Of a stretch of DNA of 42,500 nt, positions 5,611 through 11,184 are shown one piece after another. Position numbers and translations under genes: made by a program. Source of the stretch: an uncultured Caryophanales bacterium (GTDB lineage Bacteria > Bacillota_I > Bacilli_A > RF39 > UBA660); the NCBI GenBank assembly GCA_947648915.1, contig CANSPQ010000010.1, forward strand, positions 1 through 42,500, given 5' to 3'. Each line of letters opens with the position of its first letter. Within the stretch, counting starts at the first letter, position 1. A model generated the notes under the pieces. The model had not been told where the DNA came from. It saw only the letters and a program-made list of their open reading frames with translations, and did not search any database.

Positions 5611-6021
5611 ATGGCAAAAGTTTATATTGGAACTGGTAGAAGAAAATCATCTGTTGCACAAGTAAAGATGACTTCAGGAAAAGGCAAAATTACTGTAAAT
5701 GGTAGAGATGTAAGAGATTTCTTTCCATATGAAACCAATGTTATGGATTTAATGCAACCTCTAACGCTTACAAATAATGAAGAAACATTTGACATTGACG
5801 TAAAAGTATCTGGTGGTGGATTCACTGGACAAACAGGAGCAATTCGTTTAGGTATCACAAGAGCATTATTAGAATATGATGCACCAAATGCTGAAAACGA
5901 AGGAAGCTATAGAAGTGTGTTAAAAAGAGCTGGATTTATTACAAGAGATGCAAGAAGCAAAGAACGTAAAAAACCAGGATTAAAAGCTGCACGTCGTGCC
6001 CCACAATTCTCAAAGAGATAG
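5611..6021 (+). CDS. rpsI: small ribosomal subunit protein uS9
   Basis: 30S protein whose C-terminal tail reaches the P-site tRNA. The 136-residue product has the [12 protein letters not shown] start and the basic [17 protein letters not shown] end with terminal Lys-Arg typical of S9. An AGGAGGT ribosome site overlaps the rplM stop region. A strong terminator follows, so rplM-rpsI is a closed unit. Confidence 0.98.
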
Positions 6022-6030
6022 TGATTTCGA

Positions 6031-6055
6031 AAAGCCTAATGGATGGGCTTTTTTT
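6031..6055 (+). terminator. terminator of rplM-rpsI
   Basis: AAAGCC paired with GGCTTT across a 9-nt loop, followed by a T run. Confidence 0.85.
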
Positions 6056-6090
6056 GTATATAAGGAAAGTATGTTTTTGATACAAACTGA

Positions 6091-6119
6091 TTGACACAAA
6101 CAAATGTATGCTTTATAAT
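6091..6119 (+). promoter_or_regulatory. consensus SigA promoter of rarA
   Basis: TTGACA (6091-6096), exactly 17 bp, TATAAT (6114-6119): a full consensus site, the strongest in this part of the window. Confidence 0.85.
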
Positions 6120-6159
6120 GAATGCAGAAAGTCAAGTGTAAACAAGGAAGTGGAATTTT

Positions 6160-7483
6160 ATGAACCAAGTATCGTTGTTTGATGTACCATCTAGTGAACC
6201 TTTAGCATCCCGTATGCGACCAGTAAGTTTAGATGAATTTGTAGGACAAGATCATTTAATTGGTGAAGGTAAAATACTTCGTAAAATGATTGAAAGTGAT
6301 AATGTTTCTTCTTGTGTTTTTTGGGGCCTCCAGGTGTTGGAAAAACTACTTTAGCAAAATTATCGCCAAACAAACAAAATCAGAATTTGTTACTTTTTCG
6401 GCAGTTACATCTGGAATAAAAGAAATAAAGAAAGTAATGGAAAATGCAGACCAAAATAAAAATCTTGGTATAAAAACGATTGTATTTGTTGATGAAATTC
6501 ATCGGTTTAATAAAGCGCAACAAGATGCATTTTTACCATTTGTAGAAAAAGGTTCTATTATTCTAATTGGTGCAACAACTGAAAATCCATCATTTGAAGT
6601 AAATAATGCCTTATTATCTAGATGTAGAGTATTTGTTCTAAAAGAACTATCCAGTAATGATATTGTGAAACTTTTAAAAAGAGCATTAACAAGTGATAGA
6701 GGATTCGGTAAAGAAAAAGTTGCTATCTCAGATGAAGATTTAAAAATGATTGCTGAGTTTGCGAATGGAGATGCAAGAAGTGCTTTAACAATCTTAGATA
6801 TGATTGTGATAAATGGAAAGACGGATAAGGAAGGAAACATAAATATTTCCAAAGATACAATAGAGGATTGCTTAACCAAAAAAACATTACTCTATGATAA
6901 AAATGGAGAAGAACATTACAATATTATTTCGGCACTTCATAAATCAATGAGAAATAGTGATCCAGATGCAGCTGTTTATTGGTTATCTAGAATGTTGGAG
7001 GCAGGGGAAGATCCTATTTATTTGGCAAGAAGAATTTGCAGATTTGCAAGTGAGGATATTGGACTTGCTGATACCAATGCTTTGAATGTTGCGGTTAATG
7101 TTTATCATGCTTGTCATTTTATTGGTTACCCAGAATGCAATGTTCATTTAGCGGAAGCGGTTATTTATATGTCGCTCGCGCCAAAATCCAATTCTTGTTA
7201 TAATGCTTATATGTTTGCTTCTAGTGATGCTAGAAAAATGCTTGCTGAACCAGTTCCTTTGGTGATAAGAAATGCACCTACCAAATTAATGAAAGAATTG
7301 CATTATGGTGAAGGTTATCAATATGCGCATGATACAAAGGAAAAAATAACCAATATGGAATGTATGCCACCGTCTTTAAAGGGGAAAGCATATTATAATC
7401 CAAGTACACAGGGAAATGAAATTAAATTTAAAGAAAAATTAGATAAAATCAAAAAATGGAAAAAAGATCATACTATGGGTTAG
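6160..7483 (+). pseudogene. rarA: replication-associated recombination AAA+ ATPase RarA/MgsA, two frameshifts
   Basis: Clamp-loader-like ATPase acting at stalled replication forks. The N terminus (MNQVSLFDVP, SRMRPVSLDEFVGQDHL) is in the frame of the ATG at 6160. The Walker A segment PPGVGKTTLAK (6327-6359) is in a second frame, and everything from IIAKQTKSEF to the stop at 7483 is in a third. Each step equals loss of one base: near the GGGG/CC at 6323-6328, then in the AAAA at 6356-6359. Adding one base at each place restores a full-length product with the DEIH Walker B and the AAA/C-terminal domains. A consensus promoter and AAGGAAG ribosome site remain. Sequencing error or recent inactivation are both possible. 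Confidence 0.9.
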
Positions 7484-7526
7484 GTAAAAATGATGAAGTC
7501 GCGAAATACATTAGGAGGAATTGAAA

Positions 7527-8153
7527 GTGGAATTTTACGAAGTAGTAAATAAAAGAAGAACAACGAGAGAATTTTTACAAAAGCAAGTCGATTTTGAAGT
7601 GATTAAAAGAATTTTAGATGCGGGTAATAAAGCACCAACTTGGAATCATAATCGCAATTGGAGTTTTATTGTCTTAAAAACAGATGAGGAAAAGGAATAT
7701 GCTTTTGATTATGCGAAAAAAATAGCAGATAAGTTTGATGCTGAAAAGTATCTAAATATGCCAAGGCCATATCCAATTACGCTTGGTCAAAAAATGTATG
7801 CTCATGCAATGCCAAGACAATTTGCAATGCTTAAAAATGCTCCTTATGTCATAATTCCTGTATTTAAATCAAAAGAAGTAACTGGAGGAAGTTTCTCAGC
7901 ATTCAATCCTTTTTCTACAATTTGGTGTGTGATAGAAAATATATTTTTAGCAGCGACCGCTGAAGGATTATCATGTTCTATGCGAATACCTTTAAATGAG
8001 GAACATGACATTGTAAAAGAAAAGTTAAAAGTGCCAGCAACCTATATGATACCTGTATTTATTGGAATCGGTTATGCGGATCCTAGTGAATTGCAGTTAG
8101 AACAATCTTATCCTGAAATGGATAAGCAATTACACTTTGGTAGATGGAAATAA
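7527..8153 (+). CDS. nitroreductase family protein
   Basis: FMN-dependent NAD(P)H oxidoreductase fold. AGGAGG at 7513-7518 is 8 nt from GTG 7527 but only 2 nt from the in-frame TTG at 7521, so GTG is preferred (208 aa). The FMN-phosphate motif KRRTTREF is at the N terminus, NKAPTWNHNRNW follows, and the C-terminal GIGYADP is typical. It lies 43 bp after rarA with no visible terminator between. The substrate cannot be predicted. Confidence 0.85.
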   Translation: MEFYEVVNKRRTTREFLQKQVDFEVIKRILDAGNKAPTWNHNRNWSFIVLKTDEEKEYAFDYAKKIADKFDAEKYLNMPRPYPITLGQKMYAHAMPRQFAMLKNAPYVIIPVFKSKEVTGGSFSAFNPFSTIWCVIENIFLAATAEGLSCSMRIPLNEEHDIVKEKLKVPATYMIPVFIGIGYADPSELQLEQSYPEMDKQLHFGRWK

Positions 8154-8240
8154 CAATCGAATTCTAATCAACTCAACTTCTAGTTCGTGTTATATTGCTA
8201 TGATTTCCTATATAGTTGAAGTAGAAAGGAAGAAAACCAT

Positions 8241-8788
8241 ATGGATCAAATAAAAATAGGTAATTTTATAAGTGTAAGAAGAAAAGAAAGGAATATAACA
8301 CAAAGTGAACTAGCTGAAGAATTAAATATTAAATCGCCATCTTTGTATAATCATATAAAAAGTCTTGATGAAATAAAACAAAAACTTATGGTTTATGGAT
8401 GGAAGCAAATGGAAGAAAAAATGCTTGATTCTGCTGTTGGGGTATCAGGATATGAGGCATTAAAGAATATGTGTTACTCTTTTTATGATTATGCTACTAA
8501 TAATAAAGGAGTTTTTACTGCTATGCTTTGGTATAACAAATATGAAAATGCCCAAAAAGAAAATGCTACTACAAGGCTATTTAGTATGTTATTTAAAGTA
8601 ATGAAGTCTTTAGATATTAGTGATGATAACATAAATCATATTATAAGAACATTAAGAGGTTTTTTGGGGGGATTTTCTTTACTCGTAAATAATAATGCCT
8701 TTGGAAATCCAATATCTATCAAAGAAAGTTTTGACTTATACTAGAAATAATTATGAATGGCATAAAATCATTAGAAGGAGTGAAATAA
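8241..8788 (+). pseudogene. Xre-TetR chimeric regulator with C-terminal frameshift
   Basis: The first ~28 residues (MDQIKIGNFISVRRKERNITQSE...) are the opening helices of an Xre/Cro-type HTH. From LAEELNIKSPSLYNHIKSLDE onward the protein is TetR/AcrR-type with a WHG-like C-terminal domain, so the TetR first helix is replaced. The frame now stops at 8744. Loss of one base near 8733-8735 explains this: the shifted frame reads LILEIIMNGIKSLEGVK and stops at 8786-8788, two bases before the next ATG, restoring the expected TetR end. The Xre half probably belongs with the regulator fragment at 10492-11184. Whether the chimera binds DNA is unknown. Confidence 0.75.
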
Positions 8789-8789
8789 A

Positions 8790-9536
8790 ATGAATGAATA
8801 TATAAATTTAACTTTAGAAAATATTGATGATGAGCATATCTGTTGTGCAATCGGAGATAAAAAACATCAAATAGGTGTTAATAGTAAAAAGGAATGGATT
8901 AAAAGTAAATTAGAAGATGGACATATTTTTAGAAAATTAAATGCTAGAGGAAAAGTATTTATTGAATATGAGCCAATAGAAACGGCTTGGGTGCCAATAA
9001 GTGGTAAGAATTATGAATATATTTATTGTTTATGGGTGGCAGGAAGTTTTAAAGGAAATGGTATTGCTAAAGATTTATTAGAATATGCAATAAATGATTC
9101 TAAAGAAAAAGGTATGAGTGGTATATGTACTTTAACTTCTAAAAAGAAAAAGCCTTTTATTGGCGAAAAAGAGTTTTTCATTCATTATGGGTTTAAAGTT
9201 GTTGATGAAATAGGCGATTATGAATTACTAACACTTCAATTTGAAACGAGCGAAACTCCTAAATTTAATGATAATGCTAGAACAATGAAAATAGATAGTG
9301 AGAAATTTACAATTTATTATAGTAATGAGTGTCCTTATGTAGAATATGAAGTTAAAGAACTAACCGAATATGCAAAAGAGAAAAATATAAAGATTAACTT
9401 CATCAAAATTGATTCTTTGGAAAAAGCAAAAAACGTACCTTGCATATTCAATAACTGGGCTAACTTTTATAAAGGTGAATTTATATCAAATACTATATTA
9501 AATGCTAATTCTTTTGAAAAGTTGATAAATAAATAA
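8790..9536 (+). CDS. GNAT N-acetyltransferase with YoaP-type C-terminal domain
   Basis: 248 residues. The N-terminal half is a GNAT fold with the acetyl-CoA loop region VAGSFKGNGIAKDLLEYA, followed by IHYGFKVVDE. The C-terminal part (from about residue 165) is a thioredoxin-like YoaP domain with YYSNECPYVEYEV and VPCIFNNWANFYKGEF. GAAGGAG precedes the ATG and overlaps the restored end of the tetR gene. With the tetR-like gene and the radical SAM gene it forms a three-gene cassette. Substrate unknown. Confidence 0.85.
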   Translation: MNEYINLTLENIDDEHICCAIGDKKHQIGVNSKKEWIKSKLEDGHIFRKLNARGKVFIEYEPIETAWVPISGKNYEYIYCLWVAGSFKGNGIAKDLLEYAINDSKEKGMSGICTLTSKKKKPFIGEKEFFIHYGFKVVDEIGDYELLTLQFETSETPKFNDNARTMKIDSEKFTIYYSNECPYVEYEVKELTEYAKEKNIKINFIKIDSLEKAKNVPCIFNNWANFYKGEFISNTILNANSFEKLINK

Positions 9537-9537
9537 A

Positions 9538-10425
9538 ATGGAGTTTATAAAAGCAAAAACAATACTTACAAAAGTAAAATATGGTATTGAGTGGTATGGC
9601 ATAGATTATAATATGAATCTATATAGAGGTTGTTCTCATAGATGTATTTATTGTGATTCACGAAGTAATTGTTACCATATAGATAATTTTGATATAGTTA
9701 GAGGAAAAGAAAATGCTTTAAATATTTTAGAACAAGAACTCTCTAAAAAACGAGAAAAAGGTGTTGTTGGAATTGGGTCTATGTCTGATACCTATAATCC
9801 ATTAGAAAGAGAATACGAACAGACACGAGGAGCATTAAAACTTATATCAAAGTATGACTTTGGTGTTTCTATTGATACTAAAAGTGATTTGATTTTGAGA
9901 GATATTGATTTGTTAAAAGAGATAAATTCAAAAAACAATGTTATTATTAAATTTACGATCACTACTCCAAATGATGAATTATCTAAAATAATTGAGCCAA
10001 ATGTATGTGTATCTTCCAAAAGATTTCAAGCAATTAAAGTATTATCTGATAATGGAATATTTGTAGGAATTATGATGAATCCTGTCTTACCCTTTATAAC
10101 TGATAATGAAAATGATATAAAAGAGTTAGTAAGACTTGCCTATCTAAATGGTGCTAAATTTATTCATACTTATATGGGTATGACTTTAAGAGAAAATCAA
10201 AGAGATTATTATTTTAATAAACTAGATCAAAACTTCAATGTTTTAAAAGAAAAATATATTAAATATTATGGTAATAAATATAATTGTATAGTGCCAAATT
10301 ATAAAAAATTATATAAAGTATTTATTGAAGAGTGTAATAAATATGGAATATTAAATGATATGAAAGATATTATTAAAGCATATAAAAAAGAAATAAAAAG
10401 CAACGAACAAATAACATTGTTTTAG
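9538..10425 (+). CDS. SPL-family radical SAM protein
   Basis: 295 residues related to the spore photoproduct lyase (SplB) family. The [4Fe-4S]/SAM motif is C32-x3-C36-x2-C39 (GCSHRCIYCD), followed by IGSMSDTYNPLE and a TIM-barrel-like body. It lacks the other features that would make it a confident photoproduct lyase, so only the family is called. The ATG follows the yoaP stop with one base between and no clear ribosome site, suggesting translational coupling. Confidence 0.85.
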   Translation: MEFIKAKTILTKVKYGIEWYGIDYNMNLYRGCSHRCIYCDSRSNCYHIDNFDIVRGKENALNILEQELSKKREKGVVGIGSMSDTYNPLEREYEQTRGALKLISKYDFGVSIDTKSDLILRDIDLLKEINSKNNVIIKFTITTPNDELSKIIEPNVCVSSKRFQAIKVLSDNGIFVGIMMNPVLPFITDNENDIKELVRLAYLNGAKFIHTYMGMTLRENQRDYYFNKLDQNFNVLKEKYIKYYGNKYNCIVPNYKKLYKVFIEECNKYGILNDMKDIIKAYKKEIKSNEQITLF

Positions 10426-10491
10426 AAAGATAAATTACAATTAATGCAACAGATCAATCAAAAATATTTATGAGTTTATTACCTATGTCAT

Positions 10492-11184
10492 TTGTACAAC
10501 GAAAGAGGAATCACCTACCCTGATATAACCGTTATCACCAATTTATGTAAAGAATTAAATATTTCAGAACACGAATTCTTTACTGCTTGTGATGATGAAG
10601 CTATGAACAAAGAAAAAAGGGAAGTAAAAAAGTATAGAACGATTAAAAAATGGTTCTTCTATATGATAAACTTTGGATATTTGATTGGAATGATTACCTG
10701 TTTTATTTGTAATTTAGTGATAGATCATAAATTGTCTTGGTTTTTAATTGTATTGCTAGGAATTTTGATTTCCTTTACTTTAACCACAGTTCCCTTTTAT
10801 CTAAAAAATAATAAGTATAGGTTTTCAAAAATTTCTCTTATTGTTACATTTTTGGTGTATTTGTTATTGTTTACGATAAATTATGCATATAATGGAAACT
10901 GGCTATTAGGGAGTTTTCTAATTGCCTCATTTGTTTTTCTATTTTTATGGATTTCTATTTTTATCTGTACATTTACTAAAATTGCTCTTTTATACAAAGT
11001 TTCTATTTGTTTGCTTATGGTATCATTTATTACCATATTTACGAATCCGGTATGTGCAAAAGTATTAGATATTCCCAACAATGATAGTAATATTTCAAAT
11101 ATTATCTGTGCTGCAGTAATGATAGCAATCGCAATCTATCTATCAATCAAACAATTTTTTCGTAAAAGAAGACTATTCATATGA
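10492..11184 (+). pseudogene. 3' fragment of an Xre-type regulator with membrane domain
   Basis: The frame begins inside an HTH_3 domain: ERGITYPDITVITNLCKELNISEHEFF is the second half of an Xre HTH (the usual KWERG...PD...L...L.IS..E), with recognition and first helices missing. After a basic linker there are about five to six hydrophobic segments. No start codon with a ribosome site is present; upstream the frame hits a stop at 10471. The missing N-terminal helices match in type the Xre piece fused to the tetR gene at 8241, suggesting one gene split by the 8.3-10.5 kb cassette. The 3' end overlaps the hydrolase gene by ATGA. Confidence 0.7.

Follow-up and report, generated by a model that had tools for sequence, protein, structure and literature searches.

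The right-hand junction of a regulator locus in the window, by which we mean the whole 42.5 kb contig analysed (one of 58 in a fragmented genome of 1.33 Mb), is best explained as the attR of a large serine recombinase (LSR) element that integrated into an xre gene, here called xreB, and whose left end was lost later. We place the probability of this reading at roughly 0.8. According to it, Xre HTH genes would be entered by elements of this family at one fixed place, namely the GG of the Gly codon that is conserved in the W-E-x-G motif. The 5′ Xre piece found at the left of the locus belongs to another gene. The features of the locus are compiled in Table 1.

Table 1. Features of the locus with their positions, strand and the evidence on which each assignment is based.
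Feature	Position	Strand	Evidence
Gene order: nitroreductase, ORF 8241, GNAT-YoaP, radical SAM, open frame 10492, alpha/beta hydrolase, GNAT	7.5-12.3 kb		
xreA-type promoter region and first ~30 codons, 5′ part of chimera	8156..8329	+	nucleotide identity to xreA genes
Chimeric ORF of 167 aa, tetR preceded by residues 1-30 of xreA	8241..8744	+	close matches in relatives, Pfam
Fusion point, 17-bp GCTGAAGAATTAAATAT common to xreA and tetR parents	8313..8329	+	pairwise alignment, both parents
One-base deletion in tetR, premature stop	8739..8740	+	alignment to G001, G007, G231, G077
GNAT-YoaP gene, intact, 248 aa, cargo	8790..9536	+	Pfam YoaP and Acetyltransf
Radical SAM protein (SPL-like), intact, 295 aa, cargo	9538..10425	+	Pfam Radical_SAM
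Cargo/end junction AAATTACAATTA, common to cassette downstream flank and element end	10431..10442	+	homology limits
Type I right end of element	10431..10508	+	97% to G153:C21; 84-87% to two G007 copies
attR: arm TGTCATTTG (10486-10494), 12-bp spacer, core GG (10507-10508)	10486..10508	+	pattern scan, attP symmetry
C-terminal part of xreB with the membrane domain and the second HTH half	10507..11184	+	intact xreB in G004
yoaP loci with differing regulators	L051 7248-8697; L087 about 5934-7760; L042 5827-9912		

The evidence for an integration into xreB starts from an uninterrupted copy of the gene. The sister species G004 carries xreB intact (L033:10983-11783, 266 aa), and the open frame at 10492-11184 of the window matches residues 40-266 of its product with 97% amino acid identity, the first ~39 codons being absent. 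A sequence-only reading of this DNA had taken the 10492 frame for a partial Xre gene, which this comparison bears out. DNA identity to G004 starts at 10501, and the xreB part within the open frame starts at the core GG. The product, which starts with the motif's E-R-G, has no complete Cro/CI-type HTH. Directly upstream, between the cargo cassette and xreB, lies a stretch of 58-78 bases that recurs once in G153 and twice in G007, each copy preceding a different xre C-half in the same frame. These sequence comparisons identify the right junction as an attR within xreB, left by a family of serine-integrase elements. In the window, the attR adjoins a target whose uninterrupted form is known from G004; neither the xreB N-half, nor an attL, nor a matching LSR was found in the window or in the rest of this MAG, the best LSR in this genome being ~50% identical and having a different end sequence. 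A strong DNA hairpin at the element end was considered and rejected (z = 2.1, no structure).

The same end was found in front of many other xre genes. When the pattern TGTCATTTGCACAACGAAAGAGG was scanned, with up to 3 mismatches, over 386 genomes of the family and a control, it returned 13 sites in 12 of the 386 genomes as compared to 1 control match. At each of the 13 sites, that of the window included, an xre gene resumes with its second half, the boundary always falling on the Gly codon of the HTH motif W-E-x-G, and the end sequence before these second halves reads TGTCATTTG-N12-GG. The 13 xre genes are different ones, their retained parts showing pairwise local identities of mostly around 30% (43% for the best long pair). 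A class-wide scan with the pattern gave control-level matches except for the window and G247, and perfect copies of the end were found, in a class-wide search, in this family only. An exact scan of viral contigs for the att end found none, and a scan of contigs for the end returned nothing beyond the three type I copies known before.

The opposite ends of these insertions were identified as well. An xre N-half with attL is paired with the right end in G401, G002, G236, G247, G153 and G001, and four unpaired attL copies in G007 and G189 each sit on an xre N-half. In G153, for example, an inverse-orientation copy of the end is located 3.8 kb upstream, right after the xre first half. From the paired ends we inferred an attP of the form TGTCATTTG-N12-GG-N12-CAAATGACA, which is symmetric about GG with 12/12 spacing in three end types; the arm match was reached by 0, 6, 382 and 0 of 100,000 shuffles. 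The bases before GG vary in the left ends like xre codons do (GAAAGA, GAGCGA, AAAACA, GAAACG, GAGACA), whereas they are almost constant in the right ends, which makes GG the likely core. Since GG is not palindromic, a single orientation is expected, and indeed every insertion shows that orientation. The two ends form inverted repeats and could be mistaken for the terminal inverted repeats of an ordinary transposon instead of integrase attachment sites. This we rejected as very improbable: the symmetry is centred on a GG that is common to the target, all insertions use one orientation and one codon with no clear target duplication, and the right end coincides with the end of an LSR gene.

Complete copies of ~10 kb contain an LSR and divide xre into an N-half followed by attL and an attR followed by the C-half. 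At type II ends (G401, G236, G002, G189, G372 and G247) the ORF running into attR is the LSR, and in G401, G002, G236 and G247 the attL lies on an xre N-half 8-10 kb upstream of attR. Resolvase, Recombinase and Zn_ribbon_recom domains were detected in the G401 and G002 ORFs, the other copies being recognized by tblastn, and the G401 element also encodes a Mob_Pre relaxase (L188:506-1786). With a recombinase, a relaxase (in G401), paired att sites and a symmetric attP, the type II copies qualify as predicted LSR integrative and mobilizable elements with putative excision and transfer. The 10.1 kb elements of G401, G002 and G236 are 97-100% identical in aligned pieces and reside in three unrelated xre genes; three of the LSRs are ~98% identical in three xre genes, one stands at 89%, and others are truncated or at 63%. 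Recombinases at L217, L218 and L222 are 57-67% identical to the xre-targeting one (79% in the N-terminal part for L222) and end at GTGTCATT-containing sites with other target sequences, so that they possibly constitute a retargeted sister group. At L188 10284-10315, furthermore, the type II element contributes ATG codons that share the reading frame of the xre C-half (MMCHLNKETG..., MNLCHLNKETG...), from which a truncated Xre could be made in type II insertions.

Two other complete copies, of 3.8 and 2.25 kb, are devoid of a recombinase and carry other cargo, namely a response regulator, ABC transporter parts and a histidine kinase in G153, and an HD hydrolase and a YhcG-type nuclease in G001. 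The end in the window is of the same type as the ends of these recombinase-less cassettes, and no recombinase was found near type I ends. Such cassettes may be mobile in trans, with their type I ends presumably served by the same kind of recombinase, which is predicted to be active.

Staphylococcal-type cassette chromosomes are islands bounded by ccr LSRs that also occur in cargo-only versions without a recombinase, and they use the end of one gene. The elements described here are alike in combining LSR islands with cargo-only forms, but their targets are many xre genes, each interrupted midway through the HTH. A survey in Streptococcus suis found serine-integrase integrative and mobilizable elements within the gene for an HTH_XRE regulator, which it lists among 13 integration sites (PMC7168690). 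These are, like ours, serine-integrase mobilizable elements within an HTH_XRE gene; judged by the description of that site, the present elements differ in using one codon of many xre genes, in having LSR-less cassettes, and in belonging to an uncultured Tenericutes family. Closely related LSRs in several unrelated target genes have been described as multi-targeting, with the criterion that LSRs 90% identical occur in >3 target clusters at 50% identity, and their target motifs can exceed AT-rich cores in complexity (PMC10083194). The example described has a TT core and AT-rich ends, most of its clade carrying DUF4368 (PMC10083194), whereas the GG core observed here is fixed by a conserved protein motif. 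No DUF4368 match was reported in the two recombinases scanned. The open-access literature yielded no account of elements that, as a family, use one codon across many xre genes, nor of LSR-less cassettes with such ends, and nothing specific on Tenericutes serine-recombinase elements. What is new, then, is the targeting of one codon in many genes together with the recombinase-less cassettes, while a serine-integrase element in an HTH_XRE gene is known.

A more general proposal, to which we give a little under even odds, is that the serine recombinase reads the W-E-x-G codons, the most conserved DNA of the superfamily, such that xre genes would serve as landing pads and potentially reversible off-switches, while recombinase-less cassettes would spread in trans like gene cassettes. 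This would account for recurring half-Xre genes by a testable rule of one codon, one core dinucleotide and one orientation, and it would tie the loss of a regulator to the arrival of a mobile element. It also suggests that small recombinase-less cassettes could spread with a borrowed recombinase. Moreover, a recombinase that has many natural targets and whose site is compact and centred on GG would be of practical interest.

Between the two junctions of the window, a TetR-type, a GNAT-YoaP and an SPL-like radical SAM gene had been recognized, all on the + strand, and we arrived at the same composition. DNA from 8313 to about 10442 matches tetR-yoaP-spl cassettes at 79-93%, with the tetR of G007 at 93%, and the GNAT-YoaP protein shares 76-95% amino acid identity with copies in many family genomes. 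The cassette homology runs to 10442 and the element-end homology starts from about 10431, giving ~12 shared bases. No other genome examined had the tetR-yoaP-spl cargo within such an element. The radical SAM protein remained under the cut-off for NCBIfam rSAM_PA0069, Rv2578c and rSAM_mob_pairB; the radical SAM mobile pair (NCBIfam TIGR04470) is another case of mobile DNA that carries a radical SAM gene, but the SPL-like protein, with a score of 80.8 against a cut-off of 410, is not a member. The literature held nothing specific on YoaP-radical SAM pairs. The regulator upstream of yoaP varies, being xreA in G019, a relative of xreB in G319 and tetR in many genomes, and in G028 tetR-yoaP-spl and xreA are found about 3 kb apart on the same strand.

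At the left junction, the ORF at 8241-8744 opens with an Xre HTH and then turns into TetR, as previously described. Its 5′ part shows 74-85% nucleotide identity, from 8156 or 8170 up to 8329, to intact xreA genes in G019, G267, G248, G131, G061, G028 and others. These matches come from about ten genomes, with products of 200-209 aa and G019 as the best (85%); they include DNA upstream of the start codon and end at about 8329, thereby overlapping the tetR homology by 17 bp. The shared GCTGAAGAATTAAATAT represents codons for A-E-E-L-N; between the true parents it could extend to about 21 bp. The reading frame is kept across the fusion, which falls at equivalent HTH helices.

The sequence-only reading had joined this Xre piece and the 10492 frame as complementary halves of one ancestral xre gene split by the three-gene cassette. 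The pieces do lie on the same strand with complementary lengths and the cassette in between, and relatives do have one xre gene split by elements at this codon. However, the near-perfect fit in length follows from the constant length of the Xre HTH, and the first ~30 residues are xreA-like and come with an xreA promoter, showing 74-83% identity to xreA (BLAST segments) versus 35% over 34 aa to xreB (tblastn). The N-half of xreB in G004 differs in sequence from the 8241 piece, so the two pieces come from different genes, and in relatives the halves belong to different families, xreA and xreB, an outcome that the sequence-only reading had itself named as its refutation. In addition, the 5′ piece stops about ten codons before the integrase site, inside tetR and without an attL. 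A single-gene split, refuted by the intact xreB of G004, is thereby left with hardly any probability. The insertion of a cassette in an xre HTH holds for the right junction, which is the attR, but not for the left half, which comes from the other gene, xreA. Caution is therefore due with any tidy-looking 'split gene', which may be put together from pieces of three different genes.

The chimera itself was found in this genome only. Among 291 family genomes it has no full-length relative, close matches covering either the Xre start or residues ~16-166 and never both, which rules out a conserved normal gene; the exact junction was also absent from viral contigs. Pfam identified TetR_C_33 and a partial HTH_3 in the product. 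The assignment to tetR stands, but the one-base deletion after 8739 had been missed: after the frameshift the protein has 167 aa compared to 190-194 in homologues, with the last ~20 residues gone, whereas G001 of the same genus has a normal 194-aa TetR ahead of yoaP and spl. With its N-terminus replaced by Xre and its C-terminus frameshifted, the 8241 product is not an intact TetR-family regulator; it is a fusion that looks real but has probably decayed.

These observations would be accommodated by a history in two steps. An element with tetR-yoaP-spl as right-end cargo would have integrated into xreB by recombination at GG between attP and the xre attB, generating an xre N-half with attL and an attR with the xre C-half, with the consequence that xreB was cut after about 39 codons. 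This step is well supported. Subsequently, the 17-bp stretch that occurs as a direct repeat in tetR and in an xreA further upstream would have set the limits of a deletion. Lost with it would have been the remainder of xreA, the N-half of xreB, the left part of the element and its attL, and the event would have created the xreA::tetR chimera and left the cassette stranded. As the simplest account of what is seen in one genome, we grant this second step somewhat better than an even chance.

What counts against this history is that the chimera is unique and located in a fragmented assembly, where two loci sharing 17-21 bp could have been misjoined, so that only the attR/xreB junction would be biological. 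The longer shared stretch conceivable in the true parents would favour such an artefact, but the overlap of 17 bp actually observed is below the usual assembly k-mers, which exceed this length, and no second copy of either parent was found in this genome; a misjoin is accordingly an improbable explanation in our view. It is equally unlikely that the fusion reflects a selected regulator swap, in which recombination between xreA-yoaP and tetR-yoaP-spl would have given the operon the xreA promoter and a regulator whose HTH is a hybrid. While xreA is positioned directly upstream of yoaP in G019, the fusion joins equivalent helices in frame, and yoaP and spl are still intact, the tetR frameshift removes the C-terminus, a second genome with the chimera was not encountered, and the nearby RarA is frameshifted too, so that the region looks decayed.

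The deletion that we prefer would have taken place in a variable region behind rpsI. Positions 6028-10500 of the window are unlike the sister genome throughout, the sister species has other genes than the window behind rpsI (L033 6770-15656), and in 3 other genus members rpsI is directly followed by a methyltransferase-like gene. Given this location, rearrangements other than the proposed deletion are possible. The RarA-like ATPase gene at 6160-7483 contains at least 2 frame changes near the Walker A motif. Together, the RarA and tetR frame breaks suggest decay or indel errors across 6.1-8.8 kb, whereas the genes at 10.5-14 kb have no such frame breaks relative to G004. At another locus, a 71-bp relic (L036 898-968, G000:C39) preserves the 3′-terminal part of a second radical SAM gene and adjoins a 118-aa ORF starting with MARVLKNKK; in G248, an ORF similar to the latter is followed by DUF5131.
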